NCBI GenBank assembly: GCA_022953095.1
Contig: JALJCR010000001.1
Span: 1,336,501-1,400,500 of the forward strand
DNA from: Qipengyuania sp. ABI-127-1
GTDB lineage: Bacteria; Pseudomonadota; Alphaproteobacteria; Sphingomonadales; Sphingomonadaceae
Direction: 5' to 3'
Length of the DNA stretch: 64,000 nucleotides
Position 1 is the first letter of the stretch. Every line of letters begins with the position of its first letter. The position numbers were made by a program, and so were the translations under genes. This document shows positions 17,966-36,189 of the stretch, in pieces. A model generated the notes under the pieces. That model had not been told where the DNA came from and searched no databases. It saw nothing but the letters and a program-made list of their open reading frames with translations.

Positions 17966-18112
17966 AGGTGGCGCCGCCTACATTGGATGTGTGGGTCGGA
18001 AATGGCCATAAACTAAATTATGGTGCTGCGTGTTCTCACCCGTTCGATCAACGGCCGGTTACAATTTCGACAATCGCAGGGGGCAGCATAAAGTCTCAGC
18101 GAACTCGGCTCA

Positions 18113-18625: not shown

Positions 18626-18796
18626 TTGGCTTGTCCCCTTGGGAAATCTGATGTTTTTTGGTGAGCAACCAATGCATTCCGGTGGAGAAGGCATTCGGTG
18701 AGGGTTACGGTGAAACCGATTGATGATCGTTGGGATCGGTGAAATCCATTTGCCCTTGACCGCTAAGCGCAAGCTGATATCGCTCAAAGTTGAACG

Positions 18797-18808
18797 ATGC
18801 AAATGCAT
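18797..18808. promoter_or_regulatory. Candidate operator palindrome between rfaH-like and EPS regulator genes
   Basis: ATGCA-AA-TGCAT, containing the perfect palindrome AATGCATT, lies in the divergent region 82 bases before the EPS regulator start. Its position would suit autoregulation by the MarR-type protein. No second copy was found, so this is weak. Confidence 0.25.
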
Positions 18809-18858
18809 TGTCACCAAGATGGTCCAGATTCCGTGCGGGTGGTGCTCACCAGGCTCGG

Positions 18859-18870
18859 TGCGGTAGCGTG
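18859..18870 (+). promoter_or_regulatory. ops/JUMPstart-like element in the EPS operon leader
   Basis: TGCGGTAGCGTG matches the enterobacterial ops core GGCGGTAGCGTG at 11 of 12 positions, and the following C also fits. It is on the plus strand, 19 bases before the GTG of the EPS regulator that heads the operon. It is preceded by GTGCTC and CCAGG pieces that recall the longer JUMPstart sequence. A small hairpin GGTG-GTGCT-CACC lies just upstream. Because an RfaH-like gene is adjacent, this is a credible recruitment site for it. Confidence 0.6.
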
Positions 18871-18889
18871 CCCGATTCCGGTGTGATCA

Positions 18890-19279
18890 GTGGCGGGTCG
18901 TCCTACGAAACTCAATGAGAATGCACGCTTTCGAGCGCTTCGCTTGCTCGAAAAAAAGCCCGACGTTTCTCAGCGCGAACTGGCTGAAGAAATCGGAATC
19001 AGCGTGGGCAGTGCGAACTATGTTGTCCGCGCGCTAATTGAGAGAGGGCTGGTCAAGGTGGCAAATTTCAAGGCTGCCAAAGATAAGCGTCGATATTCTT
19101 ACATTCTCACGCCCAAGGGATTTGCTGAGAAGGCTGCGCTGACCGGCCGTTTTCTCGTAAGGAGGTTGGAGGAGTATGAGGCGTTGAGAGAAGAGATTGA
19201 GGAGCTGAGGTCGGAAGTGAAGTTTCGCTCTGGCGAAGGTTTCGAAGTCTCTTCAGTTGATGAAGATGGGGGGCGGTAA
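18890..19279 (+). CDS. MarR-type EPS-associated transcriptional regulator
   Basis: A 129-residue winged-helix regulator. The N-terminal half has VSQRELAEEIGISVGSANYVVRALIERGLV split over the HTH, residues about 24-52, followed by the wing and KGFAEKAALTGRFLVRRLEEY, a signature of the EPS-associated MarR subfamily found in polysaccharide loci. The C-terminus is a predicted coiled coil (LREEIEELRSEV). The GTG at 18890 is the only plausible start and has no clear ribosome-binding site. It heads the plus-strand operon and likely controls it. Confidence 0.85.
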   Translation: MAGRPTKLNENARFRALRLLEKKPDVSQRELAEEIGISVGSANYVVRALIERGLVKVANFKAAKDKRRYSYILTPKGFAEKAALTGRFLVRRLEEYEALREEIEELRSEVKFRSGEGFEVSSVDEDGGR

Positions 19280-19675: not shown

Positions 19676-20689
19676 ATGAAACGTGTTCTGATCACGGGGA
19701 CTGCCGGCTTTATCGGCTACCATCTTGCCAAGCTTCTGCTTGCAGAGGGCTATGTTGTTCACGGCGTTGACGCCATGACGGACTATTACGATGTCAGCCT
19801 CAAGCGCAGGCGGCACCAAATGCTGTTGCAATCGCAAGGCTTCACCGCGACGGAATGCTGGCTTGAGGATTTGAACAGGCTTTCAAAAATTGCCCGCGAG
19901 TTTGAGCCGCAGGTGATTGTCCATCTCGCGGCCCAAGCCGGGGTGCGCTACTCGCTGGAGAACCCGCGGGCCTACCTCGACAGCAACATTGTCGGCACTT
20001 TCAATATCATGGAGATAGCAAGAGAAGTTCAAGTGGAGCATCTCCTCATGGCGTCAACCTCTTCCGTCTACGGCGCTAACGAGGACATGCCATTCAGTGA
20101 AACTGATAAGTGCGACACGCCCCTTACCTTCTATGCAGCGACAAAGAAGGCCAATGAGAGCATGGCACATTCCTATGCTCACCTTTGGAACCTGCCCACC
20201 ACGATGTTTCGGTTCTTTACGGTCTATGGCCCGTGGGGCAGGCCTGACCTGGCGCTTTTCAAGTTCGTTGACGCCATGCTCGATGGGCGACCTATCGATA
20301 TTTACAACCACGGAGACATGTACCGGGACTTCACTTATGTGGAGGATCTCGTCCGCGGAATTCGGCTACTTATCGATGCTGTACCAGTGCGCCCCGAAAG
20401 TTCCGAGGACATCGAGGATGGCGATAGCTTGTCGCCTGCTGCGCCCTATCGAATCGTCAACATCGGGAACTCCGAGAAGGTCAAGTTGCTTGATTTTATC
20501 GATGCGATCGAAGACGCGCTCGGGATCGAAGCGAAGCGCAATTATATGGAAATGCAAAAAGGGGATGTCCCCGCAACCTGGGCCGACGCCAGCCTTCTTA
20601 AAAGACTGACAGGATACCAGCCCCAAACGGATGTCCGAGCGGGCATCGATAGATTTGTGGCCTGGTTCCGCGATTACTACGGGAAATAG
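19676..20689 (+). CDS. UDP-glucuronate 4-epimerase-like protein (copy 2)
   Basis: A 337-residue NAD-dependent sugar-nucleotide epimerase closely related over its whole length to the copy at 5458. It keeps [40 protein letters not shown] and the [17 protein letters not shown] segment. It lies five bases before the TviB-like dehydrogenase and therefore may act on UDP-GlcA or on the N-acetylated uronate that enzyme makes. Codon choice is less GC-biased than in copy 1, which suggests a separate history. Confidence 0.9.
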
Positions 20690-20694
20690 AACGA

Positions 20695-21990
20695 ATGACT
20701 GCTACTGCCCCACTGCCTAATTTGGGAGACATCCGCATCGCGGTCATTGGCCTTGGATATGTTGGCCTCCCGCTTGCTGTTGAGTTTGGCAAGAAGCGCT
20801 CAGTAATTGGCTTTGACATCGACAAAGAGCGAATTGACGCACTGAAGAATGGGCATGATGCCACGCTTGAAGTAACTGACGATGAGCTCGCAGAAGCACA
20901 CGGGCTAGTCTTTGAGTCCGACCCCTCTGCTCTTAAAGATGCGAATTGCTTCATCGTCACTGTTCCAACACCTATTGACGCAAGTAAGCGGCCAGATTTG
21001 ACCCCGCTGCTCCGAGCTTCGGAAACGGTTGGCGGTGTGCTTAAGCGGGGCGATATCGTTATCTATGAATCAACTGTCTATCCGGGGGCGACAGAGGAAG
21101 ATTGCGTTCCTGTCTTGGAGAGAACCTCCGGACTAAAATTCAATGCGGACTTCTTTGCAGGATACAGTCCAGAGCGCATCAATCCTGGTGACAAGGAGCA
21201 CAGGCTCCCCACAATTCGCAAGGTGACATCTGGCTCAAACCCGGAAGTCGCTGAGTTGGTGGACAAGCTCTACTCGACGATTATTGATGCTGGAACATTT
21301 ATGGCGGAAAGCATTCGCGTGGCTGAGGCCGCGAAAGTAATCGAGAATACCCAGCGCGACATAAACATCGCCTTGATCAACGAGCTTGCAATTATTTTTA
21401 ATCGCTTGGGCGTCGACACGGAAGCAGTGCTTAAAGCGGCGGGTACAAAGTGGAACTTTCTGCCATTCCGACCAGGTCTTGTCGGCGGGCATTGCATCGG
21501 GGTCGATCCGTATTACCTGACTCACAAAGCCGAGGCAATTGGACATCATCCAGAGATCATTCTTGCTGGCCGCCGCCTAAATGACAGAATGGGAGCCTAT
21601 GTCGCGAACCAGATGGTCAAAGCCATGTTAAGGAAGCGAATACATATTGATGGTGCTCGGGTCCTAGTGATGGGCCTCGCATTCAAGGAAAATTGTCCTG
21701 ACCTGAGGAATACTCGGGTTGTTGATGTAATTAAAGAGTTAAGCGATTTCGGAATTCATGTTGATGTATACGATCCCTGGGTTGATCGAAGGGCTGCGCT
21801 CAAAGAGCACGATATAGAGCTTTTAATTAGCCCGACGCCGAGGACATACGACGGTATCATTCTGGCGGTTTCTCACGAAGAATTCAAGGCTCTTGGAGGG
21901 GCTGGTGTTCGCGCGTTCGGTCGCGAAACACACGTTTTCTATGACTTGAAGCATGTCTACTGCAAGGCCTCTAGTGACTTGCGCCTCTAA
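20695..21990 (+). CDS. TviB/WbpA-like UDP-N-acetylhexosamine 6-dehydrogenase
   Basis: A 431-residue nucleotide-sugar dehydrogenase that should oxidise UDP-GlcNAc or UDP-GalNAc to the uronate. It has [18 protein letters not shown] (Rossmann), [18 protein letters not shown], the [17 protein letters not shown] helix and the catalytic Cys in [12 protein letters not shown], then [15 protein letters not shown]. These motifs place it in the TviB/WbpO group rather than with Ugd. It follows the epimerase by five bases. Confidence 0.92.
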
Positions 21991-22050
21991 TATGCACGCT
22001 ATTTATTCTGGGCCTGCAAAAGACTTGGCAGCCGCCGGCGGCCGTGTGTG

Positions 22051-23424
22051 ATGAGTCATTTGTTCTGGCCTAGGCTGTTGGCTACATTCTCGAAAAACGG
22101 TTTGGCTCAAGCCGTGGGGATCGGCGTGACCCTTCAAGCTGCAAACATAATAGCGCTGCTTTTGAGCACGGCGATTTTGTCCCAGGAAATGGGAGTCGCT
22201 CATTTTGGTGCCTATGTACTGATAATTAGCGTCTTAACGTTGCTTTCAGTCGCTACCGTTTTTGGATTTCCGGCATTCTTGACGCGCGAGATTGCAGCAT
22301 CTCTAACCAAAAAGGGGGACTCGATTGCAGCATCTCTAACCAAAAAGGGGGACTCGAGTGTCGATCACGGGCCGGCATGGCTCAGCGGTTATGCCTTGTT
22401 GACTTCGGCAATATTCTTCGGATTGGCCGTACTTCTTGTATCAGCAATTCAGGCAATATTCCCTAAGGCGATGTTCACTTCTTTCTCTTGGTTCGCGTTC
22501 TCTTTAGTTTTAGGGCGTTCTTTCCTCGAAATTTCAGCGGGGGCTCTAGCAGGCCTCGGGCTGATAAGGAAAAGCCAAGTGGCGTCTCTTTTCTTACTCA
22601 ATGGGCCTTTTGTACTGTTCTTGATAGCTGACACGATGTTTCTGCAAAGGGAAATGACGGTCGACCGGGCTTTGTGGCTTCAGGCCACTTCTACTTGGTT
22701 GGGTTCGGCTGTTGGGCTTGTTTGGCTATGGCGCGGTTTGAGATCGTATGAGCTGGAGCTCAGCGCGAATATTTCGAGTTGGCTGAGATGCCTTCGTCTT
22801 TGCGCGCCACTTGCTTTGGCCAATGGTTTGGCGTCATTACAGCAAAACGTCGTATTCCTAATTTTGGGCGGGCTCCTATCCTCTGTTGAGGTCGGGATTT
22901 TTAGAATCGCAGAGAGGTTAAGCGCCCTCACACATTTTTTGCGATCCGCACTTCTCAATATCTTACAGCCGCAAATTTCGCGCAGTTGGAAAATGGGCGC
23001 CCTGCCCGATTTGGCGCAGCGCTTGCGGAAACTTTCTCTATTGAACGCCCTATTCAACATTGGGCTATTATTAGCATATTCCGCGATTGGCCTACTCTTA
23101 ATTGAAAAGATGTTTGGGGCCGAAGCAGTAGCAGCATGGCTTCCTCTCTTGGTGCTTTCTGCTGGCTACAGCATAGCTTCAGTTTTTGGGTTCAATGGCA
23201 TGTTATTGGCCATGACGTCCAATGCTGGATTGTTAACAAAGGTCTTGGCGATTGGCTTTGCGATATTGAGCCTACTGATTTTGGTCCTCACTCAGGTATT
23301 CGGAATCATGGGTGCTGCTTTAGCAACTTCAACATATACCATACTTATCGCGTTTGGTTTGTGGAGGTTTGCGATAGGCCGCAGTGGCGTCGACGCGGCC
23401 ATATTCCCCATTTTCATCAGATAG
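22051..23424 (+). CDS. Wzx-type polysaccharide flippase
   Basis: A 457-residue, very hydrophobic protein with about 12-14 predicted membrane helices, in the MOP/Wzx fold; it would flip lipid-linked repeat units across the inner membrane. LANGLASLQQNVVFLILG and the FNGMLLAM segment are typical. The start is uncertain: ATG 22051 follows GTG 22048 and has no clear ribosome-binding site. A perfect 33-bp in-frame duplication at 22291-22356 inserts 11 residues (IAASLTKKGDS twice) into a loop. AT content is much higher than in the core genes. Confidence 0.88.
   Translation: MSHLFWPRLLATFSKNGLAQAVGIGVTLQAANIIALLLSTAILSQEMGVAHFGAYVLIISVLTLLSVATVFGFPAFLTREIAASLTKKGDSIAASLTKKGDSSVDHGPAWLSGYALLTSAIFFGLAVLLVSAIQAIFPKAMFTSFSWFAFSLVLGRSFLEISAGALAGLGLIRKSQVASLFLLNGPFVLFLIADTMFLQREMTVDRALWLQATSTWLGSAVGLVWLWRGLRSYELELSANISSWLRCLRLCAPLALANGLASLQQNVVFLILGGLLSSVEVGIFRIAERLSALTHFLRSALLNILQPQISRSWKMGALPDLAQRLRKLSLLNALFNIGLLLAYSAIGLLLIEKMFGAEAVAAWLPLLVLSAGYSIASVFGFNGMLLAMTSNAGLLTKVLAIGFAILSLLILVLTQVFGIMGAALATSTYTILIAFGLWRFAIGRSGVDAAIFPIFIR
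22291..22356 (+). repeat. Perfect 33-bp tandem duplication inside the flippase gene
   Basis: Two identical 33-base units sit head to tail at 22291-22323 and 22324-22356, each coding 11 residues (IAASLTKKGDS). The frame is kept. Identity at third codon positions indicates a recent slippage event or one that can still change copy number. Confidence 0.95.
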
Positions 23425-23449
23425 CCGTATTACTGGGTTTATACACACA

Positions 23450-24253
23450 ATGATTGTATCCGATAATCATAAGTTTATTTTTATTCATATTCCGAAGTGC
23501 GGCGGAACTTCTGTCCGGACACTACTCGCTTCTTATGATAGTTGCGGGGGAGGCTTCACTGGAAAGATTGGGCCGCTGGGTCGGCACGAAGAGGTCGACT
23601 ATGTGCATTTGCCGCTCAATGTATTGAAAGAAAACTTTTCAGATATCTTTGCTAAGCTCACATATTACAAAAGCTTTGCGATTGTTCGAGATCCAATTTC
23701 TCGCTTTGGCTCAGCTCTCGGGCAATGGTTTAAGAATACTAAGAATGAGCATATACTTGAATGTAGCCCGGCTGCAATTGAGCTGGGAGCACGCTGTGTC
23801 CTTGACGACCTGATTTCCACCCCAGAGACACTAGCGCCGACCCTTATCCACTTCCGACCACAAAGCGATTTTATTTACTTTGATGGGTGCAAAATGGTTG
23901 AAAAAGTCTTTAGGCTTGAGAGTATTGAGGCGGCTCAATCAGAACTATCTGCATATCTTGGACTAAACCTTCCGGCTTTGCGTCATGAGAACCAGGCGCT
24001 GCAATTTCGAAGCCGAGCCCTCAAGCGGGCTGTTACGGCTCTGCGGCCCGTCGCAACACCACTTTGGCAAAATCTCCCAGTGCCGCTTAAGAGGCCTATT
24101 TATCATGCTTTACTCGCACCTCCAAAAAATGGAGAGTCAAGGCTCGTCAACGATCAGAGAACTGTCGTCCAAGTCTTGGAGGACGCTGGGTTAGTATCAG
24201 AGCTGGAAGCACTCTACGCTACCGATATTCAATTATATTCGAACACCGAATAG
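23450..24253 (+). CDS. Sulfotransferase family protein
   Basis: A 267-residue cytosolic protein with the PAPS-binding loop HIPKCGGTS at residues 13-21 and the 3'-phosphate motif AIVRDPISRF around residues 77-86, as in carbohydrate sulfotransferases of the HS2ST/Stf0-like groups. The ATG at 23450 begins MIVSDNHKFIFIHIPK; the frame upstream overlaps the flippase end. Placed between a flippase and a glycosyltransferase, it would sulfate the polysaccharide or a precursor. Acceptor unknown. Confidence 0.85.
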   Translation: MIVSDNHKFIFIHIPKCGGTSVRTLLASYDSCGGGFTGKIGPLGRHEEVDYVHLPLNVLKENFSDIFAKLTYYKSFAIVRDPISRFGSALGQWFKNTKNEHILECSPAAIELGARCVLDDLISTPETLAPTLIHFRPQSDFIYFDGCKMVEKVFRLESIEAAQSELSAYLGLNLPALRHENQALQFRSRALKRAVTALRPVATPLWQNLPVPLKRPIYHALLAPPKNGESRLVNDQRTVVQVLEDAGLVSELEALYATDIQLYSNTE

Positions 24254-24268
24254 AGCTAGGAAAATACT

Positions 24269-25393
24269 ATGCATGCCCAAGCACGTATTTTGCTGCTTTC
24301 GAAGTATCCCCGTAAGGGCGCAAGTAGCCGACTGAGATTTCTTCAATTTCTCCCAGGCCTTGAGGCGGAGGGATTCAAAATTAAACAGTCTCCTCTTTTC
24401 GATGACAACTACTTGCAGCGAAAGTACAATAAAGAAAGAATATCACTAATTCGTATTTTTGTTCTTTATTTGAGACGTGCATTAGATCTTTTTTCGGCAA
24501 AAGGCTATGATATATTATGGATTGAGGGTGAGATTTTCCCCTTTTTGCCTGCTTGCGCTGAAAGGATATTGGCTGCACTCGGCGTAAAGCTTATAATCGA
24601 TTATGATGATGCGATCTTTCATCGCTATGACTTGTCCACTTCGCGGCTCATTAGGGGGGTTCTTGGAAAGAAGATTCAGCAAGTAATGCGTGTGGCCACA
24701 TTGGTCACGGTGGGAAACGAATACTTAGCCGCATATGCACGTGCCGCGCCCGCGCCTAGTGTGGTAGTTATTCCAACGGTAGTTGACAAAGAAAGATACC
24801 GACCTGCCCTAAAAAGATCTCCGCAATTGGTGGTCGGTTGGATTGGCACGCCAGTCACAACGAAATACCTGCGAAAAATTGCTGTTGAACTTCAGGGTGC
24901 GTGCCGGAGGCACGGAGCGCGGTTAACTTTGATCGGTGCTGATCGAGCTGCGCGTGACCTATTCCCAGGTGATTTTCTCGAGATCTTAAGCTGGAGCGAA
25001 GCGGAAGAGGCAGCGATGCTTGCCGATATTGATGTTGGGATTATGCCACTTGAGACCTCTCCGTGGGAGGAGGGGAAGTGTGGTTATAAGATCATCCAGT
25101 ACATGGCGGCGGGTTCTGCGGTGGTCGCTTCATATACTGCAGCGAATGCGGCAATTTTGAAGCGCGGCAATTGTGGGGTTGTTGTGGATCAAAATTGCAA
25201 CTGGTTCGAGGCCCTCTCCTCACTTCTAAAGGATCGCAGCAATCTTGAAGCTCTGGGGCTTAATGGTCGGAAGGCAGTTGAAGAGGAGTACTCATTGCAG
25301 GCGCAACTTCCTAGAATCACGAGATTTATGACTGCAGTATCAAAAGGCGAGGATATTGATTCGGAGGCTGAGAGTACGTCATGTGCGGCATAG
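24269..25393 (+). CDS. GT4-like glycosyltransferase
   Basis: A 374-residue GT-B type glycosyltransferase. The N-terminal domain has [15 protein letters not shown] and [13 protein letters not shown]. The C-terminal donor-binding domain has [45 protein letters not shown] split around the E-x7-E-like region, typical of group 1 enzymes in polysaccharide loci. Donor and acceptor cannot be told. Its end overlaps asnB by 13 bases in another frame. Confidence 0.87.
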
Positions 25394-27330
25394 CTGGCGT
25401 CTTTGATCGCCGCCTATCGTCGATAGAGGCAAATGGCGTTGTGGCCAGAATGAATGCCGTTCAACGCCATCGTGGTCCAGATGAATCGGGAGTTTGGCAT
25501 GGCGCTGACGGCTTGGGATTAACCTTAGGCCATACCCGCTTAGCCATTTTGGATCTTAGTGCAGCTGGGTCTCAGCCCATGGTGTCGAGAGACAATCGAT
25601 ACATTTTGGTCTTTAATGGCGAGATATATAATCATCGCAAGCTAAGAACCGAATTGTCAGGCGAGTTCAGCACACTACCGTGGAGGGGGCAGTCAGATAC
25701 GGAGACCTTGCTGGAATGCCTTAGCTTATGGGGCATCGATGCGACGCTCCAAAGACTAAATGGCATGTTTGCCTTTGCTCTTTGGGATCAAAAGCTTTCC
25801 GAGCTTACGCTTGCGCGCGATCGATTTGGTGAGAAGCCTTTGTACTATTGGGAGGAGGATGGACTATTTGTTTTTGCTTCTCAGGTCAGCGCGCTTAAGC
25901 AGCACCCCGCGTGGCGCGGTGAAATAGATCGAGATGTTTTAGCCCAGTACTTGCGTTTCAATTGCGTGCAGGCGCCCAACTCCATTTTTCGAAAAGTCAA
26001 ACAGCTACCCCCTGCCCATTTTGTGAGGTTCAGTGGCGAGACCGGTGTTGTCTCGATGCCGGACTGCTACTGGAACATTGGTGCTACATATGAAGCTTGT
26101 TCAAGAAATCCACTCCAGTGTGATGATGATGAATTAGCCGATAAGCTAGAGGCGCTATTACATGATGCTGTAGGCATGCGTATGGTCGCAGATGTCCCGC
26201 TTGGAGCTTTCTTGTCTGGTGGAGTCGACTCATCCACGGTCGTGTCCATAATGCAGGCCCAAAGCGAACGGCCGATTAGGACTTTTTCTTTGGGCACAGA
26301 TTCTGATGGATACAATGAGGCAGCCCATGCCAAGGCAGTGGCGAAACATCTCGGGACAGACCATACTGAATTTATTGTAACATCTAAAGACGCATTGGAT
26401 GTCTTGCCAAAACTGGCAGAATTTTGGGATGAGCCCTTTGCAGATTCGTCTCAGATCCCGACCCTGATGGTAAGCGAGCTAGCTCGAAAAGATGTTACGG
26501 TAAGTCTTTCTGGCGATGGTGGCGACGAACTGTTCGCTGGCTACAATCGCTATGTGACTGGTTATCGGCTTTGGCAAGTCATGCGCCCACTGCCTAGACG
26601 GCTACGCTTTATACTCGCTTCGCTTTTAGAATCCGCGCCTTCTGACTTCCTAACGAGGGCGCCAATCCTGGGACGAATTCCTGCGCTTAGTTCAAGTTTA
26701 AGCAAAATGGCCACCGTCTTGAGGCATAATGAGGTCAATGAGTACTTCCTCTCTCTTGTTTCTCAATTCTCCAACCCAAGCGAGCTATTGTTAAGTGCGG
26801 GCGAGGCGCCCTCGATTGCGAAGACGCCAGAGCATTGGCCGACCGAGTTGGGCGACTTTCGGGACGTAATGATGTTTTTGGATGCAGTGGGATACCTCCC
26901 CAACGACATACTTACGAAAGTTGATCGGGCCACAATGAGCACCAGCCTTGAAGGTAGAATCCCATTTCTTGATCATCGAGTGGCGGAGTTCGCTTGGCGA
27001 ATTCCAGTAAGGGAGAAGATTAAGAACGGTTATTCAAAATGGCCATTGCGCAAGGTCCTTTATCGCTACGTCCCATCTGAACTAATTGATCGGCCCAAGA
27101 TGGGGTTTGGAATACCAATCGAATATTGGCTCAATCATGACCTGCGCGATTGGGCAGAGCATTTACTCGATCCCAAGTTATTGAAAGATCAAGGATTTTT
27201 CAACGTTGGCCCAGTGCGGGCGCTTTGGGAGGATCACATTTCTGGGAGGAGAAAATGTCACCACCAGCTATGGACCATACTTATGTTCCAGTCTTGGCTG
27301 GATACACAAAAATTTGACTGTTCGGATTGA
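25381..27330 (+). CDS. asnB: Asparagine synthetase-like glutamine-dependent amidotransferase
   Basis: A 649-residue AsnB-family protein. Cys2 of MCGIAGVF is the class II glutaminase nucleophile; RHRGPDESG and FNGEIYNHR complete that domain. The synthetase half has the ATP pyrophosphatase P-loop [10 protein letters not shown] and [17 protein letters not shown]. Family members in O-antigen loci amidate uronic acids to uronamides, which fits the two uronate-forming dehydrogenases nearby. Plain asparagine synthesis is the alternative. Confidence 0.93.
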
Positions 27331-27370
27331 AAAACGAGCTTCGATTTAGCACTATATTAAGAATTCATAG

Positions 27371-28636
27371 ATGAAGTTCTTCAAGCTTTTATTACTTCTA
27401 TTTCTAATGGCTTTAGCGTTTTTCGCGATTGTCATGCCGAACTCCTTTCAATTATCTACCGCTATATTGCTGGTGGTGTTCTTTGCTTTAGCGCTACTAT
27501 CGCGAAGGCTTTTCAGAATGCAGGCTAGGTTCACGCTAATGTTCTTGGCGGGCATCCTGATCACCTTGCTTTATGTTTTTTATGGGGAGCTGAACGGTGC
27601 TCCCGACCGAGCCCAGTGGCAAACTTTGGCAATTTATATCTTCTTTCCTGCGCTATGGATTTTTGCGGGTATGCTGGCGATCAGTACGTTAGGGAACGAG
27701 GGCTTAGCCAGGGCCATAGCGCTATTCTCATTGCCTGCATGTGCTTCGATTGCGATTTTCTTCTATCTTTACCTAACTTTCGGGCCAGACAGCGTGACCC
27801 TGTTTGTCGAAGAGGCAAATGTTAATTTACGGGGTACGACGGTCGCGGCTCGGATGCACGTTTATGCACCTCTAATATTTCTTTGCGGAGGAATATTCGC
27901 GGCACCCTCTATAATCTCGCAGGCCCATTTGCGGATAATCGCTGTTCTAGCCTTGACGTTCGCGATTTTGACCTCCGGTCGTAGCGCTTTGTTCGTCTCA
28001 CCGTTCATCGGCGTGACCATTCTTGCTATCGCGAGTTGGGCCGGCGGTATGAGTTCTCGCCTTATTTTTGCGGCGATCGTTTCGCTTCTCGTAGGGACTT
28101 TAAGCCTGATATATCTGGCTAGCTACTTCAATGTGTCAATTGACGATTCAATCAAGATTTACTTCGAAGATCTTTTGGCTTTGGGTGGTTCTGCGCGCAT
28201 GTCCCAGACAGAAGCACTTTTGTTGTCGTTTCTTGAGGGTGGCGGGCTTGGAGTAGGCCACGGAGTTTCGGCGGACCTTATTCGAGACTTAGAGAATCCC
28301 TGGCGCTATGAAATGATGATTCATGCTACGCTACATCGAGTTGGGCTGGTCGGTTTCATTGTCTATGTACTCCCGTTCGCCATTTATATCTTCGAAGCTT
28401 TTCGCGACTTGTTTCGTGATCGGCTTCCAGTATACCGGCGCTTTTGGTTGGGCGGCGGTTTGGCGGCCCTCATTTCTACAGCAACCAACCCTTATATCGA
28501 AGGCTTTGTGCTCCAGTGGATGTTCGTCTTTCCATTGTTGGATTGGTACATGAGAAGGCACCCAATGAGGGGACCAAACATCCAAACTCGACGGGGAATT
28601 CGACCAATTTCGGCTCTGAAACCCACCCATACGTAG
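27371..28636 (+). CDS. Wzy-like O-antigen polymerase (candidate)
   Basis: A 421-residue integral membrane protein with about 10-12 helices and a longer polar loop around residues 250-310, ending in a basic tail. Its layout and place between asnB and rfbC fit a Wzy polymerase, a family with little sequence conservation. No signature residue can be cited. AT-rich like its upstream neighbours. Confidence 0.7.
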   Translation: MKFFKLLLLLFLMALAFFAIVMPNSFQLSTAILLVVFFALALLSRRLFRMQARFTLMFLAGILITLLYVFYGELNGAPDRAQWQTLAIYIFFPALWIFAGMLAISTLGNEGLARAIALFSLPACASIAIFFYLYLTFGPDSVTLFVEEANVNLRGTTVAARMHVYAPLIFLCGGIFAAPSIISQAHLRIIAVLALTFAILTSGRSALFVSPFIGVTILAIASWAGGMSSRLIFAAIVSLLVGTLSLIYLASYFNVSIDDSIKIYFEDLLALGGSARMSQTEALLLSFLEGGGLGVGHGVSADLIRDLENPWRYEMMIHATLHRVGLVGFIVYVLPFAIYIFEAFRDLFRDRLPVYRRFWLGGGLAALISTATNPYIEGFVLQWMFVFPLLDWYMRRHPMRGPNIQTRRGIRPISALKPTHT

Positions 28637-28788
28637 TAATCGGACGGCCTACGGCTTTATCGATCGTGGGGATAACCAATGATATTGAAGTGTTCCCCGC
28701 CACTAGGAACGACAAAAACTTCTGAGTGATGAACGTGTTCGTACTCTTGATAAACTAAACACCAAAATGCTGACGAAACGAGTTGATA

Positions 28789-29358
28789 ATGCTGGTTCAG
28801 AACACCGAGCTAAAAGACCTCTTGATGATCACGCCAAAGCGCTTCGGCGATCACCGTGGTTTTTTTGCCGAGACCTACAGCGCCCGTGTACTGGCCGGAC
28901 ACGGCATCAAGGAGCAGTTTGTCCAGGACAATCACTCGCTCTCTGCGCAGATCGGCACGGTGCGCGGGCTCCATTTCCAGGCGCCGCCGCATGCCCAGGC
29001 CAAGCTTGTGCGCTGTGGGCGCGGGGCGTTGTTCGATGTCGCAGTCGATATTCGCAAGGGCTCCCCTACTTATGGCCAATGGTTCGGGGCCGAGCTGAGC
29101 TTTGAGAACGGACGGCAATTGTTCATTCCGGCCGGGTTCGCGCACGGCTTTGTCACCCGCACCCTTGACACTGAGATCGTCTATAAATGTTCGGACTATT
29201 ACGCGCCGGAGACTGAAGGCGCGTTGCGCTTTGACGATCCCGACATCGGTATTGACTGGGGTTTGGATGGGATCGATGTGGTCTTGTCCGAGAAAGACGC
29301 CGCTGCGGGTTCGCTCGCTGATTTCGACAGCCCCTTCACCTACGAGAGACCTTCATGA
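28789..29358 (+). CDS. rfbC: dTDP-4-dehydrorhamnose 3,5-epimerase
   Basis: The third enzyme of dTDP-L-rhamnose synthesis, 189 residues, cupin fold. It has [14 protein letters not shown], the catalytic His in VRGLHFQ, and [15 protein letters not shown] with [13 protein letters not shown] 28789 is chosen over an in-frame TTG six bases upstream. Base composition becomes markedly more GC-rich from here, which marks a module boundary. Its stop overlaps rfbB as ATGA. Confidence 0.96.
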
Positions 29359-30410
29359 AAATCCTCGTCACCGGCGGCGCCGGCTTTATTGGTTCCGCAG
29401 TCATCCGGTTGGCGATCGGCCGCGGCCACAGCGTGGTCAATGTCGACGCGCTAACCTATGCCGCCTGCCTCGAGAATGTCGCCCCGGTCGCAGGCGATCC
29501 CGGCTACGCCTTCGAGCATGCCGATATCCGCGATCGCGCTGCGCTTGATCGCATCTTTGCCGAGTACCAGCCTGACGTGGTGATGCACCTGGCCGCAGAA
29601 AGCCATGTCGATCGCTCGATCGATGGCCCTGGCACGTTCATGGAAACCAACATACTGGGTACCTTCAACATGCTGGAGGCGGCGCGCAAATACTGGGTTG
29701 AGAACGATAAGCCGGAAACCTTCCGTTTCCACCACATCAGCACAGACGAAGTCTACGGCTCGTTGCCGCCTGATCCGGAGGTGCAATTCACCGAAGACAC
29801 ACCTTACGATCCGCGTAGCCCCTATTCTGCGTCAAAGGCGAGTTCGGACCATCTCGTTCGGGCCTGGGCCGAAACTTATGGCCTACCGGTGCTGGTGACC
29901 AATTGCTCGAACAATTATGGGCCTTATCACTTCCCTGAAAAGCTGATTCCGGTGGTCATCATTAACGCCCTGCATGGCAAATCGCTGCCGATCTATGGCG
30001 ACGGTTCCAACGTACGCGACTGGCTGTATGTCGAGGATCATGCTGACGCGCTACTTACGGTGGTCGAGAAGGGAGAGGTCGGGCGGACCTACAACATCGG
30101 GGGTGAGAACGAGTGTTCGAACCTTTCGCTGGTAAGAACGATCTGCGGCATCCTTGACCGGTTGCGTCCGTGTGATGACGGTTCGTCATATAGCGATCTC
30201 ATCACCTTTGTCTCTGATCGGCCCGGCCATGATGCGCGTTATGCGATTGATCCCAGCCGGATCCGCGAAGAGCTGGGCTGGCGGCCCTCCGTGACTGTCG
30301 AGGAAGGACTGGAACGGACCGTGCAGTGGTATCTGGAAAATGAGGACTGGTGGAGACCACTGATGAGCCGCCAAGGCGTGGGCCAGCGACTTGGCGGGGG
30401 CAAGAACTAA
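29355..30410 (+). CDS. rfbB: dTDP-glucose 4,6-dehydratase
   Basis: A 351-residue SDR-fold enzyme making dTDP-4-keto-6-deoxyglucose. [12 protein letters not shown] binds [23 protein letters not shown] with the catalytic Thr-Asp-Glu, and the [10 protein letters not shown] Tyr/Lys pair are all present, as is [17 protein letters not shown]. It is translationally coupled to rfbC. Confidence 0.97.
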
Positions 30411-30416
30411 GCCGAA

Positions 30417-31277
30417 ATGACCATTCTCGTATTTGGCAGGACAGGGCAGGTAGCGCGAGAATTGCAGGCGCTCGCGCCGGTAGTCGCATTGAGCCGCGAG
30501 GAGGCAGGCCTTGCCACGCCGGGAGCTTGCGCTGCCGCGATCGAGCGACATTCACCAACGGCGGTTATCAATGCCGCAGCTTATACCGCAGTCGACCGGG
30601 CAGAGGACGAGGAGGGATTGGCCACTCAGGTGAACGGCTTTGCCCCTGCCGAAATGGCGAAAGCCTGTGCCAAGAGGGACACACCATTTGTACACCTGTC
30701 TACGGACTACGTTTTCGACGGCAGCGGTGATGCAGCTTGGCGTCCGGATGATGGCACTGCGCCTATCTCCGCCTATGGGCGCGGCAAGCTGGCGGGTGAG
30801 CAGGGCGTGGTGGCTGCCGGAGGACGTTATGCGATCCTGCGCACCTCCTGGGTGTTCTCGGCCCATGGGCAGAACTTCGTGAAGACCATGTTGCGGCTGG
30901 GGGCCGAGCGCGGCCAGTTGCGCGTCGTTGCAGACCAGATCGGCGGTCCAACACCCGCCGCGGCCATCGCGCAAGCCTGCCTCACGATCGCGGGTCAACT
31001 CGCGAATGGCCCGGCAAAGGCGGGAACTTACCATTTCAGCGGCGCTCCAGATGCATCATGGGCTGATTTCGCCCGTGCGATCTTTGCCCAAGCCGGGCTG
31101 GTGTGCGAAGTAGTGGATATCGGTACAACAGATTATCCAACGCCTGCTCGTCGCCCTGCCAATTCACGGCTCGATTGCAGCGCTACCGAGTCTACATTCG
31201 GTATCGCCAGACCTGATTGGCAGGCCGGCCTGGCGGCGGTCCTCAAACAGATCAAACAGAAGGATACAGATAAGTAA
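30417..31277 (+). CDS. rfbD: dTDP-4-dehydrorhamnose reductase
   Basis: The last step to dTDP-L-rhamnose, 286 residues. FGRTGQVARELQ is the nucleotide-binding loop; NAAAYTAVDRAED, LSTDYVFDG, and SAYGRGKLAGE with the catalytic Tyr and Lys are in order. Its TAA shares one base with the rfbA start. Confidence 0.96.
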   Translation: MTILVFGRTGQVARELQALAPVVALSREEAGLATPGACAAAIERHSPTAVINAAAYTAVDRAEDEEGLATQVNGFAPAEMAKACAKRDTPFVHLSTDYVFDGSGDAAWRPDDGTAPISAYGRGKLAGEQGVVAAGGRYAILRTSWVFSAHGQNFVKTMLRLGAERGQLRVVADQIGGPTPAAAIAQACLTIAGQLANGPAKAGTYHFSGAPDASWADFARAIFAQAGLVCEVVDIGTTDYPTPARRPANSRLDCSATESTFGIARPDWQAGLAAVLKQIKQKDTDK

Positions 31278-32146
31278 TGCAGCGTAAGGGCATCATCCTG
31301 GCCGGGGGCTCCGGCACACGGCTCTACCCGGTGACCATTGGTCTCTCGAAGCAGCTCTTGCCGATCTATGACAAGCCGATGATCTACTATCCGCTCAGCG
31401 TTCTGATGTTGGCGGGAATTCGCGAGATCGCGGTAATCACGACGCCGGAAGACCAGGCACAGTTCATTCGCACCCTCGGCGATGGCAGCCAGTGGGGCAT
31501 CAGTCTGACTTATATCGAACAACCCAGCCCCGATGGGCTAGCGCAGGCCTATTTGCTTGCGGAAGAGTTTCTGGCGGGCGCGCCATCGGCCATGGTGCTG
31601 GGCGACAATCTCTTTTTCGGCCACGGCCTGCCCGAACTGTTGATCGAGGCGGCAGCGCGCAGCGAAGGCGGCACGGTATTCGGCTATCGTGTTGCCGATC
31701 CGGAACGCTATGGCGTGGTCGATTTTGCCGAGGACGGCTCAGTCCGTTCGATCGTCGAAAAGCCGGAAGTGCCAGCCTCCAACTTTGCTGTGACCGGCCT
31801 CTATTTCCTCGATGGCTCGGCTCCGCAGCGGGCGGCACGGGTCAAGCCATCGCCGCGAGGCGAGCTTGAGATTACTACTCTGCTCGAAAGCTATCTGGCT
31901 GATGACGTGCTGCAGGTAAGCCTGATGGGGCGGGGGTATGCCTGGCTCGACACTGGCACGCATGGCAGCCTGCTTGATGCAGGTAATTTCGTGCGCACGC
32001 TGGAGGAACGGCAAGGCTTACAGACCGGCAGTCCGGACGAGATTGCCTATGGTCAATGTTGGATATCCAGTGAGCAATTGGCTAAGCGCGCAACTGTGTT
32101 TGGCAAGAACGCCTACGGTCATTACCTGGAGCAGTTACTTGGGTAG
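31277..32146 (+). CDS. rfbA: Glucose-1-phosphate thymidylyltransferase
   Basis: Makes dTDP-glucose, the first step of the rhamnose pathway. The 289-residue product begins with the nucleotidyltransferase signature ILAGGSGTRLYPVT and has KPMIYYPLS, VLGDNLFFGHG and FVEKP-type IVEKPEVP, then the GYAWLDTGTH motif. The operon order rfbC-B-D-A is complete and tightly packed. Confidence 0.97.
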   Translation: MQRKGIILAGGSGTRLYPVTIGLSKQLLPIYDKPMIYYPLSVLMLAGIREIAVITTPEDQAQFIRTLGDGSQWGISLTYIEQPSPDGLAQAYLLAEEFLAGAPSAMVLGDNLFFGHGLPELLIEAAARSEGGTVFGYRVADPERYGVVDFAEDGSVRSIVEKPEVPASNFAVTGLYFLDGSAPQRAARVKPSPRGELEITTLLESYLADDVLQVSLMGRGYAWLDTGTHGSLLDAGNFVRTLEERQGLQTGSPDEIAYGQCWISSEQLAKRATVFGKNAYGHYLEQLLG

Positions 32147-32174
32147 AGCAATACAGCGCCACACAGCTATCAGA

Positions 32175-32264
32175 CTCAGACGTTGTTCTCGGCCTTTTCA
32201 AGATAGCACCCGAGCACATTCACAGACTTCCAGCCGTCTGCACTTATGATGGCGGCCACGGCGA
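32175..32264 (-). pseudogene. Remnant of a tyrosine-recombinase 3' end
   Basis: Read on the minus strand this codes AAIISADGWKSVNVLGCYL and then EKAENNV, clearly related to the C-terminus of the intact integrase at 38837 (AAIMRAGGWKSVNVLARYL). By hand alignment 71 of 90 bases match. The residue before the end is a TGA stop where the intact gene has Trp. The conserved block that holds the catalytic Tyr region is kept, but the rest of the gene is absent. It sits between rfbA and the next gene. Confidence 0.8.
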
Positions 32265-32287
32265 CCTATGCGAATTCGGGAAGCGCA

Positions 32288-32668
32288 GTGATCAAACTTT
32301 TCGCTTCGGCAAGCAAAATTACCACAGTTCAAGCTATATTCGTAGATCGGTCTGACATTTTGGCGCTGCTTCAACGCTGGAAACCCCAATTGCTGCAAGG
32401 GCGCCTGCTGCGCTATGCGATCGCGGTCGTGGTGACCGCAGTGGCGGCCTATTTCGTCACCGAAGGCGTAGCGGGTGTCTTGCCCGCGCGGTGGCCTATG
32501 TTGCTACGCCTCGCGCTCGCCGGGGTGGCCATCCTACTTGCATGTCTCCCCATTCTGGTGTTCCTTTTCGCGGCGCTCGGGATTCCCCCCGGCGCAGCCT
32601 TGGCCGAAGTGCCAGGCAGAACCATGCCCCAACGCCCCGCGACCAGCGATAGTGTGCCAAATGGCTGA
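32288..32668 (+). CDS. Small membrane protein of unknown function
   Basis: A 126-residue protein (from the GTG at 32288) with two hydrophobic helices, about AIAVVVTAVAAYFVTEGVA and LALAGVAILLACLPILVFL, and a Pro-rich tail. An upstream ATG at 32246 lies inside the integrase remnant and is unlikely; the GTG has GGGAAG seven bases before it. No family is recognised. Its stop overlaps the next glycosyltransferase start, so it is expressed with the module. Confidence 0.5.
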   Translation: MIKLFASASKITTVQAIFVDRSDILALLQRWKPQLLQGRLLRYAIAVVVTAVAAYFVTEGVAGVLPARWPMLLRLALAGVAILLACLPILVFLFAALGIPPGAALAEVPGRTMPQRPATSDSVPNG

Positions 32669-33800
32669 TATGAAGGGAGCAAGATTTCTGCTAGTTGGCG
32701 CCTTCGCCCGTTCGCTGGTCCTGTTTCGGGGCCCGTTGCTTGAAAGCCTTGTCGCAAGTGGCTGGGAGGTGCACGCAGCGGCGAATGCCCTCGAGGAAGA
32801 TTCCGAAACACTTGCTGGCCTGTCGGCGCTCGAGGTGACGCCGCATACGCTCCCGATCGAGCGCACCGGAATGAACGTCGCGGCCGACCTCAAGACACTT
32901 CGTGCCATGGTCCGGCTGTTCCGCCGTATCAGGCCGCAGGCCATGCTGGCCTATACCATCAAGCCGGTGGTCTGGGGGTTGATCGCAGGCTGGATGGCTG
33001 GAGTGCCCCGCCGCTATGCCCTGATTACCGGGCTTGGCTATGCCTTCACTGGTGAAGCGACGGGCAAGCGTGGTGTGATCCGCGCGATTGCGCGGAGTCT
33101 TTATCGTGTCGCATTGTCCCGCTCGCATGGGATCTTCTTCCAGAATCCTGACGATGCCGCGCTGTTCGCGGAGCTTGATCTGCTTCCCGCGGGCGTTCCG
33201 GTGACGATCGTCGACGGCTCCGGGGTCGATCTTCGCCACTACCAGCCCCAGCCATTGCGCCAGCAGCCGCTGCGCTTCCTGCTGATCGCCCGCTTGCTGG
33301 GTGACAAGGGCATCCGTGAATATGCTGCAGCCGCAGCGATGATCCGCGAGCGGCATCCCGATGTTGAGTTCCATCTGGTCGGCGGGACGGACCCGAACCC
33401 TAACGGAATCAGCCTCGACGAGCTGAGCGCGTGGCAAAACGATGGCACAATTATCTATCATGGCGAGCAATCGGACGTGCGCCCCTTCCTCGCAGATTGT
33501 CACGTCTACGTGCTTCCGAGCTACCGCGAAGGGACGCCGCGAACCGTTTTGGAAGCTATGGCCACGGGCAGGGCAATTATTACCACAGATGCGCCAGGGT
33601 GCCGCGAAACGGTGAACCCGGGCGTCAATGGTCTTCTAATCCCCCCACGCGAAACTGAACCCTTGGTCTCGGCGATGCAATCCTTTATCGATAATCCCGC
33701 CCAGGTTAAAACAATGGCAGATGCAGCTCTTTCTCTGGTCAGAGATCGCTACGCTGCGGAGAAAGTTGCGGCAAGGATGCTTTCCGCGATAGACGCATGA
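32661..33800 (+). CDS. GT4 glycosyltransferase (PglA/WbpX-like)
   Basis: A 379-residue GT-B glycosyltransferase. It has GPLLESLVASGWEV at the N-terminus, ITGLGYAFTG in the acceptor domain, and LLIARLLGDKGIREYAAAA plus PSYREGTPRTVLEAMATG (E-x7-E) in the donor domain. This resembles enzymes that add a GalNAc or GlcNAc to a bacillosamine-type primer, which fits the pgl-like genes that follow. ATGs at 32661 and 32670 are both possible. Confidence 0.88.
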   Translation: MADMKGARFLLVGAFARSLVLFRGPLLESLVASGWEVHAAANALEEDSETLAGLSALEVTPHTLPIERTGMNVAADLKTLRAMVRLFRRIRPQAMLAYTIKPVVWGLIAGWMAGVPRRYALITGLGYAFTGEATGKRGVIRAIARSLYRVALSRSHGIFFQNPDDAALFAELDLLPAGVPVTIVDGSGVDLRHYQPQPLRQQPLRFLLIARLLGDKGIREYAAAAAMIRERHPDVEFHLVGGTDPNPNGISLDELSAWQNDGTIIYHGEQSDVRPFLADCHVYVLPSYREGTPRTVLEAMATGRAIITTDAPGCRETVNPGVNGLLIPPRETEPLVSAMQSFIDNPAQVKTMADAALSLVRDRYAAEKVAARMLSAIDA

Positions 33801-33814
33801 GCGAAGGTTGAACC

Positions 33815-34414
33815 ATGCTGGTAAAGCGCCTGTTTGATTGCTGCGTTGCGATTTTGGTTCTCATCCTGTTCGCGCTCCCGATGCTTGGTGTCGCGCTGAT
33901 GGTGCGTAGCAAGCTTGGTTCACCGGTGCTTTTCACGCAAACGAGGCCGGGACTGCACGGCAAGCCATTCAGGATGCTGAAGTTCAGAACTATGCTGGAC
34001 GCGGTTGACGAAAACGGTGATCCGCTTCCTGACGAGAAGCGACTGACCTCGTTCGGGCGGTTTCTTCGATCGACCTCGCTCGATGAGCTTCCTGGCCTGC
34101 TCAACGTGCTGATGGGGGATATGAGTCTGGTTGGGCCGCGTCCGCTTTTGATGGATTACTTGCCGCTCTACTCGCCTGAGCAAGCTCGTCGACATGAAGT
34201 GCGTCCGGGAATTACTGGCTGGGCTCAGGTAAACGGACGCAATGCCCTGTCTTGGCCAGAGAAATTCGCGCTGGATGTGTGGTACGTGGACAATCGGTCG
34301 ATGTGGTTGGACCTGAAGATTATGTGGCTCACTGCGGTCAAGGTGGTGCAGCGGGAAGGGATCAGCTCCGCGGGTGAGGCGACCATGCCGCGCTTCATGG
34401 GAGAAACCCAGTGA
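33815..34414 (+). CDS. PglC-like phosphoglycosyltransferase
   Basis: A 199-residue monotopic phosphoglycosyltransferase: one re-entrant N-terminal helix (LVLILFALPMLGVALMV), FTQTRPGLHGKPF, KFRTM, the catalytic Asp-Glu in STSLDELPGLL, and GDMSLVGPRPLL. It lacks the extra membrane domain of WcaJ, and its short length is that of PglC, which transfers di-N-acetylbacillosamine-1-phosphate to undecaprenyl phosphate. It overlaps the acetyltransferase by four bases. Confidence 0.9.
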   Translation: MLVKRLFDCCVAILVLILFALPMLGVALMVRSKLGSPVLFTQTRPGLHGKPFRMLKFRTMLDAVDENGDPLPDEKRLTSFGRFLRSTSLDELPGLLNVLMGDMSLVGPRPLLMDYLPLYSPEQARRHEVRPGITGWAQVNGRNALSWPEKFALDVWYVDNRSMWLDLKIMWLTAVKVVQREGISSAGEATMPRFMGETQ

Positions 34415-35052
34415 AACTGGTCGGGATTTACGGCGCTTCTGGCCACGGCCGTGAAGTGATGGGGATGCTGGCGAAAAGACCATCAGCCGATATCGCCTTT
34501 GTATTCATCGATGATAACGCAGTTCAGAAGACGGTCAACAATCGCCCTTGTCTTGATTGGGATTCGTTTTTGGCAGCGCCAACCCAAAGCAAGGAGACCG
34601 TGCTTGCAATTGGCGACGGAAGAGCGCGCGAGCGGCTTGCGGCAAAATGCAAGGCAGCGGGCATTGGCTTTATGCCAGCCCATGCGCAAAGCGCTGTAAT
34701 ACTTGAAGAAGTCGAACTAGGCGAAGGTTCGGTGCTCTGCCCCTTTTCCATGGTCACCTCAAACGTGATAATCGGGCGACAGTTCCATGCCAACTACTAT
34801 TCGCAGGTGTCCCATGATTGCGTCATCGGCGATTTTGTCACCCTTGCTCCGGGCGCGAGATGCAATGGCAACGTCGTTATCGAAGACCGCGCCTATATTG
34901 GCAGTGGTGCCATCCTGCGTCAGGGCAAGCCAGGTGATCCATTGGTGATCGGTGAGGGTGCTGTTGTAGGCATGGGAGCCGTGGTGACCAAGAGCGTCCC
35001 TGCAGGAATCACCGTTGTCGGCAACCCGGCGCGGCCACTGGAGAAAAAGTGA
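34411..35052 (+). CDS. PglD-like sugar O/N-acyltransferase
   Basis: A 213-residue acetyltransferase. The N-terminal Rossmann-like region (GIYGASGHGREV) binds the UDP-sugar and the rest is a left-handed beta-helix of hexapeptide repeats with the catalytic His in QVSHDCVIGDF. This is the PglD/NeuD layout; PglD acetylates the 4-amine to give UDP-di-N-acetylbacillosamine. It uses a GTG start overlapping the preceding stop. Confidence 0.9.
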   Translation: MKLVGIYGASGHGREVMGMLAKRPSADIAFVFIDDNAVQKTVNNRPCLDWDSFLAAPTQSKETVLAIGDGRARERLAAKCKAAGIGFMPAHAQSAVILEEVELGEGSVLCPFSMVTSNVIIGRQFHANYYSQVSHDCVIGDFVTLAPGARCNGNVVIEDRAYIGSGAILRQGKPGDPLVIGEGAVVGMGAVVTKSVPAGITVVGNPARPLEKK

Positions 35053-35055
35053 ACC

Positions 35056-36189
35056 ATGCGAATCTGGCTTTCACGCCCGCATATGTCGGGACGCGAGGAA
35101 GCGCACGTAGCGCAAGCCTTTGCGTCGAACTTCGTTGCACCGCTAGGGCCACAACTTGATGCCTTTGAAAACAAGGTATCGCAATATCTTGGCGGCGGCT
35201 TGCATTGTGTGGGCCTTTCGTCCGGTTCGGCCGCACTCCATCTCGCCTTGAGGATCGCCGGTGTCGGGCCGGGCGACGAGGTGTGGGTCTCCTCCATGAC
35301 CTTTGCTGGTGGGATATTCCCGGTGAATTATCTTGGAGCAAAGCCGCGCTTCTTCGACCTTGATAAAGATAGTTGGACGGTAGATGTAAACATACTTGCA
35401 GAACAACTCGAGATTGCTGCGAGCGAAAGCAGGCTGCCAAAAGCGATTGTGCCAACCGACCTTTACGGTCAGAGCGTTGACCTTGATCCGCTCGAAGCTC
35501 TTGCTGCGCAATACGGCATTAGCCTGATTGTGGACTCTGCCGAAAGTCTTGGCGCATCATACAAAGAAGGGCGGATGGCGGGAACCGGTGGCGATGCGGC
35601 CATTCTTTCCTTCAACGGCAACAAGATCATTACCACCTCGGGCGGCGGAATGCTTGTTACTAGACACAAGGCCTGGGCCGATGAGGCCCGCTTTTTGGCG
35701 ACGCAGGCGCGAGATCCGGCGCCACACTACGAGCACTCTACTTTCGGTTACAACTACCGCCTTTCCAACATTTGTGCGGCCATTGGTCTAGGGCAAATGG
35801 AAGTCGTTGATGACCGTGTTTCGCGGCGCCGGGCGATTTTTGACCGATACCGCGATGCGCTCATAAGGCCTGGAATTTCATTTATGCCTGAGCCAGATGG
35901 CCTGCGTTCAACACATTGGCTTACAGCGTTTGCTATCGATCCCAATCAAGTTGGCGTATCGCGCGAAGACATTCGCCTGATGCTGCTCGAGCATGAGATA
36001 GAATCGCGCCCATTGTGGAAGCCCATGCACATGCAGCCGCTCTATGCTGGCACGGCGTATCATGGTTCTGGCGTGGACGAGCGATTGTTCTCCCAAGGCC
36101 TGTGCCTTCCGTCGGGAAGTGACATGTCGGATGATCAACAGGACGAGGTGATTGGCCGAATTCTTCAGCTTCTCGATTCTGCAAACTGA
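35056..36189 (+). CDS. PglE-like DegT/DnrJ/EryC1 aminotransferase
   Basis: A 377-residue PLP-dependent sugar aminotransferase. SSGSAALHLALRIAG, VIVDSAESLG-type LIVDSAESLGASY, and the PLP lysine in SFNGNKIITTSGGGM are visible, then the YNYRLSNICAAIGLGQ motif. This fits PglE, which aminates UDP-4-keto-6-deoxy-GlcNAc. It follows PglC and PglD in the same order as in Campylobacter-type pathways. Confidence 0.92.
   Translation: MRIWLSRPHMSGREEAHVAQAFASNFVAPLGPQLDAFENKVSQYLGGGLHCVGLSSGSAALHLALRIAGVGPGDEVWVSSMTFAGGIFPVNYLGAKPRFFDLDKDSWTVDVNILAEQLEIAASESRLPKAIVPTDLYGQSVDLDPLEALAAQYGISLIVDSAESLGASYKEGRMAGTGGDAAILSFNGNKIITTSGGGMLVTRHKAWADEARFLATQARDPAPHYEHSTFGYNYRLSNICAAIGLGQMEVVDDRVSRRRAIFDRYRDALIRPGISFMPEPDGLRSTHWLTAFAIDPNQVGVSREDIRLMLLEHEIESRPLWKPMHMQPLYAGTAYHGSGVDERLFSQGLCLPSGSDMSDDQQDEVIGRILQLLDSAN

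Follow-up and report, generated by a model that had tools for sequence, protein, structure and literature searches.

The DNA analysed here, hereafter the window, is a 64,000-nucleotide stretch of the Qipengyuania sp. ABI-127-1 genome. At the locus under study, a gene for an RfaH-like NusG paralogue and a gene for a MarR_EPS regulator (marR) diverge, and a 12-base sequence resembling the ops element of Escherichia coli lies between them, on the sense strand and 19 nt upstream of the marR start (Table 1). The divergent gene was confirmed as the adjoining RfaH-like paralogue that an earlier, sequence-only reading had proposed, and its product shares 98% identity with its counterpart in Erythrobacter sp. 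AP23. That reading had also put the element in the leader of a long EPS operon; the sense-strand orientation held, but the leader is that of marR, and the EPS genes begin 396 nt past it. The 396-nt gap between marR and the epimerase gene (19280-19675) holds no ORF of 100 aa on the plus strand. The genes beyond it encode an epimerase/dehydratase, a TviB dehydrogenase, an asparagine synthase, dTDP-sugar-type proteins, a glycosyltransferase, a sugar transferase and an aminotransferase, alongside others without a family match. We infer that these genes are the target operon of the element, presuming that marR is cotranscribed with them across the gap. In a plasmid search, matches were confined to the epimerase region among the 20 listed of 166 records, and a search of viral contigs for MarR_EPS gave no relative.

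Table 1. Features of the element locus in window coordinates
Feature	Position	Strand	Evidence or remark
RfaH-like NusG paralogue, 170 aa	18113..18625	-	TIGR01955 120.4 bits; Pfam NusG 68.5 bits
Predicted -35, TTGACC	18756..18761	+	by eye from family position profile
Predicted -10, TATCGC, overlapping the operator	18778..18783	+	family position profile
Probable MarR_EPS operator, GCTCAAAGTTGAAC	18782..18795	+	palindrome pattern shared by 53/57 leaders
Hairpin abutting the element, 3' arm ending at the base before T1	18831..18858	+	folding; best R1 match in the window
ops-like element, TGCGGTAGCGTG	18859..18870	+	equivalent to ops positions 1-12; 2-12 identical to E. coli ops; core kept in relatives
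MarR_EPS regulator gene, GTG start, first gene after the element	18890..19279	+	TIGR04176 143.4 bits, cut-off 88
Polysaccharide genes, inferred target operon	19676..36189	+	family matches

The one-mismatch likeness of TGCGGTAGCGTG to ops (GGCGGTAGCGTG; 11/12) was confirmed at this place, and it is the sole single-mismatch ops site in the window. All of the ops recruitment bases (C3, G4, G5, T6, A7 and G8) are present. Six sites in the window lie within two mismatches of GGCGGTAGCGTG, compared with 7.1 expected from shuffles; judged in the window, the 12-mer alone is within chance, and it is conservation of the core in relatives that lifts the element above it. In the whole host genome GTGCGGTAGC occurs 8 times, compared with 42 times for the reversed pattern, and among the 8 copies only the one in the window lies outside a predicted ORF, and this copy has the hairpin. 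Further targets in the host genome were not supported by the T6 pattern, whose other copies lie in predicted ORFs except one (L234), which has no abutting hairpin. Similarly, in genome G144 the other four T6 copies are in ORFs or, in one case (L229), without a 6-bp hairpin.

To describe the protein, we aligned it with E. coli RfaH, which it matches over nearly its whole length. TIGR01955 was its best NCBIfam family and also aligned nearly full length, although the score falls below the curated cut-off of 144.5 bits; the scores for LoaP and UpxY were lower (65.6 and 70.9 bits). An AlphaFold2 model built from 44 sequences (mean pLDDT 88) predicted the C-terminal domain to be a beta-barrel. In Foldseek the model aligned with activated RfaH (8phk, 6c6s), and likewise with several NusGs, over about 160 columns, and with autoinhibited RfaH (5ond, 2oug) over about 95; its N-terminal domain matches that of the E. 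coli RfaH structures. Unlike RfaH, the protein lacks key autoinhibition residues: among 76 RfaH rows, 67 of them different, F130 is replaced by V or I in 70 and E48 by R or K in 60 (by S in the window protein). The F130V substitution is reported to have freed E. coli RfaH from ops dependence (PMC6391919). The side chains with which E. coli RfaH contacts ops are given as K10, H20, R23 and R73 (PMC5995543); K10 is kept in 69 of the 76 rows and R23 in 59, whereas N stands in place of H20 in most rows and R73 has mostly been replaced. The equivalents in the window protein are K15, N25, R28 and Y78, so that two of the four contacts are kept, and the core may be recognized through a partly different contact set.

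The element was then followed in relatives. MarR_EPS genes scoring above the TIGR04176 cut-off were sought in whole genomes from four overlapping samples of 149 (family), 385 (class), 396 (order) and 398 (phylum) genomes. Five genomes of family f22, in which the MarR_EPS match lies inside an open frame of 694-698 aa, were left out. The resulting set comprises 34 genes from 33 alphaproteobacterial genomes, together with 15 from other classes. The f22 frames (L028, L123-L127) perhaps represent a fusion. Neither these leaders nor those of the named loci described below were chosen by the core. An RfaH-like gene lay within 1.5 kb of marR in 20 of the first 33 loci; the other genomes were then checked for a paralogue elsewhere. 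Overall, 26 of the 33 genomes have an RfaH paralogue, and TGCGG[T/C]AGC occurs in all 27 of their marR leaders, whereas none of the 7 marR leaders from RfaH-negative alphaproteobacterial genomes (a NusG-level match only, or none at E 1e-5) has it. Counted by genome, 26/26 versus 0/7 gives a Fisher p of 2.3e-7 with kinship ignored. Both states, element with paralogue and neither, occur inside each of four genera (g42, g89, g91 and g373). In the cases in which the leader was examined before any search for the paralogue, the paralogue was present in all six element-bearing genomes without a nearby paralogue (G144, G739, G695, G778, G825 and G1117) and in none of the seven with element-less leaders. 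Adjacency alone is insufficient as an explanation, because the paralogue lies about 606 kb from the element in G144 and about 469 kb in G739.

Three of the negative leaders (L006, L057 and L060) hold a two-mismatch copy at the element's expected place, which looks like decay, with the caveat that 12% of shuffled leaders reach two mismatches somewhere. A one-mismatch copy in L056, also from an RfaH-negative genome, lies elsewhere in the leader. In Qipengyuania xiamenensis (L059/L146), which was counted as RfaH-positive, rfaH has an in-frame stop near codon 30 and the leader element is intact; the stop reflects either recent loss or a sequencing error. In the other classes the element was found in none of 15 marR leaders, one of which (L122) is cut at the contig start, and two of these have RfaH. 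Outside the Alphaproteobacteria, G924 (L119) and G953 carry both MarR_EPS and an RfaH paralogue with an element-less marR leader, and the recruitment site there may be another one.

A second, named set of loci came from the species genomes of GTDB, which were scanned with five aligned RfaH-like proteins. Judged by title, the best 80 of 109 relatives are nearly all alphaproteobacterial, and 49 of these 80 loci contain a MarR_EPS gene (50 genes). Some genomes are shared with the 33-genome set, and seven locus pairs have identical RfaH rows. The sequence-only reading had made its case depend on conservation in close relatives that keep both genes; besides the 27 leaders above, the core was present in 50 of 50 named-locus leaders, with T at position 6 in 44 and C in 6. 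Among the carriers are Erythrobacteraceae, the Roseobacter group, Minwuia, a Kordiimonadales genome, Rhizobiaceae MAGs and Martelella. Across the 1.08 Mb of the 80 loci GTGCGGTAGC occurs 45 times, compared with an average of 2.2 and a maximum of 15 for its 30 one-mismatch variants, and GGGCGGTAGC does not occur there. In the locus DNA searched for the other 31 of the best 80, neither a MarR_EPS gene nor a convincing element was found, the best R1 match (E 0.04; R1 is the covariance model described below) lying inside an ORF; several of these loci are on short contigs, and some of the genomes have more than one rfaH copy.

The base composition of the element was examined in 57 non-redundant leaders (<85% identity) out of 77, bases 1-9 of which were fixed by the collecting pattern (T or C at position 6). 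The family consensus, TGCGGTAGCCTG, agrees with ops at 10 of 12 positions. The bases at the downstream pause vary: position 11 is T in 39 of the 57, and position 12 is G in 32 and T in 25. In E. coli, ops bases 3-8 are described as required for RfaH recruitment and dispensable for pausing (PMC5995543). These bases are kept in the alphaproteobacterial leaders, some with C for T6 (9 of 76 rows), whereas the outer bases differ, with T1 and mostly C10 where ops has G. Because all single ops substitutions except G2C reduced the RfaH effect in E. coli in vivo (PMC5995543), T1 and C10 are expected to cost E. coli RfaH something. We also compared base 6 with RfaH residue 28, which is R in 57 of 67 T6 rows and 2 of 9 C6 rows; among 52 conserved columns, only V137 is retained less well than R28. 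C6 needs about 4-5 changes on the tree, and an independent-pairs test found 4 pairs, with an average of 1.1 in the expected direction, 0 against and a median p of 1. The link between base 6 and residue 28 is suggestive only.

The hairpin that had been read just upstream of the element was found; the JUMPstart-like pieces read with it gained no support at the sequence level, with no Rfam JUMPstart match obtained in 16000-22000 at E 5. Taken alone, the window hairpin with its element shows no folding advantage over shuffles (z 0.38). Across the 57 leaders, however, a hairpin of at least 6 pairs ending within 2 nt of the element occurs in 56, compared with 40% of dinucleotide shuffles (mean z -2.0), and in 48 it ends at the base directly before T1, that is, 11 nt before position 11. 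The 57 leaders form 27 clusters at 60% identity, and 26 of the 27 representatives have the abutting hairpin. When 5' halves were swapped between unlike leaders, the hairpin was left in 842 of 2274 chimeras, with a mean energy of -6.3 versus -11.2 kcal/mol. The shuffles and chimeras together indicate that the pairing is kept though the sequence is not. RNAalifold failed to recover the hairpin from the ungapped alignment, probably owing to a register shift between lineages. A fixed-structure covariation score was 0.398 versus 0.197 in shuffles (0 of 500 as high); since the structure slid by +1 still scored 0.359, the case for the hairpin rests on the per-leader folds and the chimeras. In hairpin-stabilized (his-type) pauses, about 11 nt separate an RNA hairpin from the 3' end of the transcript. 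The stem-loop beside the element would be expected to match this spacing if polymerase pauses at position 11.

Upstream of the hairpin, a palindrome, G[CT]TC[AG]-n-[TC]GA[AG]C, occurs in 53 of the 57 leaders, 60-66 nt before the element in 36 of them. It is also present in 5 of the 7 RfaH-negative alphaproteobacterial leaders and in 14 of the 15 leaders of the other classes, and is probably the MarR_EPS operator. Aligning the leaders on the palindrome brings out two peaks, TT[G/T] and TA, with the hexamers separated by a 17-nt spacer (16 nt in the window), likely a sigma-70 promoter that overlaps the operator. A generic promoter scan found none, and the promoter call rests on the family pattern. 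By this pattern, transcription would start near 18790, which would place the element near +70, inside the transcript.

To look for the element ahead of genes other than marR, we ran R1, a covariance model of hairpin plus element, on 289 alphaproteobacterial genomes. R1 is not specific by itself, as 64 of the 289 genomes match at E 0.01. Of the 30 R1 loci listed, 3 had built the model; of the other 27, 22 are in predicted ORFs and 5 outside, with the reservation that the ORF calls also flag two true leaders. The top R1 match in the window is the hairpin at this locus (22.1 bits), whose leader is itself among the 57 that built R1, and the second match in the host genome has E 0.016. By the same construction, the marR leader is the best R1 match in 17 of 19 RfaH-positive genomes; in the 7 RfaH-negative genomes the best match has E 0.001 or weaker. 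Intergenic matches in G363, G278, G261 and G285 precede polysaccharide genes (two aminotransferases and two glycosyltransferases), directly in G363, G261 and G285 and at 545 nt in G278, with hairpin-element gaps of 0, 0, 2 and 0 nt for G363, G278, G261 and G285, respectively. The loci taken further were L238, L239, L247 and L262, of which L262 is one of the 22 in-ORF matches and was chosen as RfaH adjoins it. An RfaH paralogue was detected in all four genomes, with E no weaker than 1.3e-25. In G278 and G285 the paralogue lies just upstream of the element and was visible before those two (L239 and L262) were chosen, so that only G363 and G261 were true predictions, and the predicted paralogue was found in both. 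In G294 (L241) the paralogue is on another contig and the element is poorer; G181 and G041, with in-ORF R1 matches, gave NusG-level matches only. A second R1 match in G778 (C7:31084-31123), besides its marR leader, is divergent from rfaH at about 280 nt, perhaps a second target in one genome.

Control by ops and RfaH is already known in E. coli and its kin. The element shares with the gammaproteobacterial ops the core GCGGTAGC, including bases 3-8, and like ops it stands before polysaccharide genes and is tied to a NusG paralogue; the abutting hairpin of the alphaproteobacterial leaders sets it apart from ops. A stem-loop directly 5' of the ops core is also a feature of JUMPstart RNA (Rfam RF01707), which is listed for gammaproteobacteria (PMC2864571). 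In an E. coli rfb leader, which served as the RF01707 control (60 bits), the Rfam hairpin ends one base before ops, whereas the alphaproteobacterial hairpin is not conserved in sequence and mostly ends directly at position 1. Membership of the JUMPstart family was rejected, as RF01707 matched neither the window region nor 10 relatives at E 5, and R1 scored the E. coli JUMPstart copy at only 7.2 bits. For LoaP and UpxY we know of no described ops core. These proteins are likewise specialized NusG paralogues linked with long biosynthetic operons (PMC7593976). The same paper assigns 18% of rfaH genes to the Alphaproteobacteria and notes a helix-turn-helix regulator beside RfaH cluster CL4, a neighbourhood that is plausibly the MarR_EPS-RfaH arrangement. 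Among the open-access papers listed by literature searches, no title or abstract opening reports an alphaproteobacterial ops element.

The element, hairpin and operator are conserved, and element and paralogue strictly co-occur in the genomes examined. We consider it very probable that the element is an alphaproteobacterial equivalent of ops and loads the RfaH-like protein, a reading in which recruitment itself is deduced from comparative sequence. Weighing against it are the 31 named loci in which neither MarR_EPS gene nor convincing element was found, the loss of two of the four ops contacts, the T1 and C10 bases, the element-less leaders of G924 and G953, the variable pause bases, the unremarkable folding of the window hairpin and the one-mismatch copy in L056. 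The pairing of ops and RfaH suggested by the sequence-only reading is thus upheld as an ops/JUMPstart variant outside the Rfam JUMPstart family. Pausing, binding, antitermination and operon extent would follow a predicted course. Transcription would begin within the MarR_EPS operator, and polymerase would make a leader of about 70 nt before pausing at the element. Non-template bases 3-8 would then be exposed as the DNA hairpin that E. coli RfaH reads, with C3:G8 and G4:A7 paired and G5 and T6 displayed. The RfaH-like protein would bind, exclude NusG and stay with polymerase, which would then be less subject to Rho termination along the long EPS operon. The upstream RNA hairpin, ending 11 nt before the expected pause at position 11, probably strengthens that pause.

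Other explanations were weighed against this one. The element might be a MarR_EPS regulatory site, either an accessory operator or an RNA signal for marR translation, with RfaH unrelated, and its almost constant place in the marR leader near the start codon in the loci examined fits this idea. However, leaders of RfaH-less genomes and of other classes lack the element and mostly keep the palindrome, and the four intergenic R1 matches precede aminotransferase or glycosyltransferase genes and not marR, which makes this explanation very improbable. We hold it likewise very improbable that the conserved feature is a hairpin-stabilized pause or attenuator acting via NusA or ribosome coupling, with the RfaH-like gene a mere neighbour. 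Conservation of hairpin position and strength without that of sequence would suit such a device, but it leaves unexplained both the tie between core and paralogue where the paralogue is encoded far away and the better retention of the core than of pause bases 10-12. As for a chance match beside a NusG paralogue, the number of ops-like sites in the window does equal that in shuffles; conservation in relatives and in the named loci contradicts it, and we give it almost no credence.

Within the reading of the element as an ops counterpart, the E. coli ops pause is backtrack-stabilized, and we tentatively propose, at somewhat less than even likelihood, a composite signal in which the RNA hairpin stabilizes the pause and the non-template core recruits an RfaH that neither switches fold nor is autoinhibited. 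If this is true, specificity would come from a long hairpin pause plus DNA reading and not from autoinhibition, and fold switching would not be required for sequence-specific, trans-acting NusG paralogues. Ops-independent cis recruitment of RfaH proteins without a fold switch is discussed in a 2026 preprint (PMC13015549). The system is ordinary in kind and new in place and form, the cognate element appearing new. A large RfaH-like group outside the gammaproteobacteria would gain a defined target site, hundreds of kb from the gene in two genomes, and the EPS loci of Erythrobacter, the Roseobacter group and others a predicted circuit with MarR at the promoter and RfaH in the leader. They would also serve as a natural test of whether sequence-specific loading depends on a fold switch.

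Two further arrangements were observed near rfaH genes. In L167, L175, L176 (at about 7947) and L187 (at about 3000), four related loci of the Roseobacter group, another ops-like core, GGGCGGTAGAG, precedes the RfaH match by about 50 nt, and in L185 (6579) by 1.4 kb; these sites perhaps reflect rfaH autoregulation or just shared descent. In G363 (C24), G261 (C47), G285 (C6) and G294 (C107), the RfaH paralogue is closely preceded on its own strand by a MarR_EPS-like gene with a weaker score (about 63-71 bits, below the cut-off), a second HTH-RfaH arrangement.
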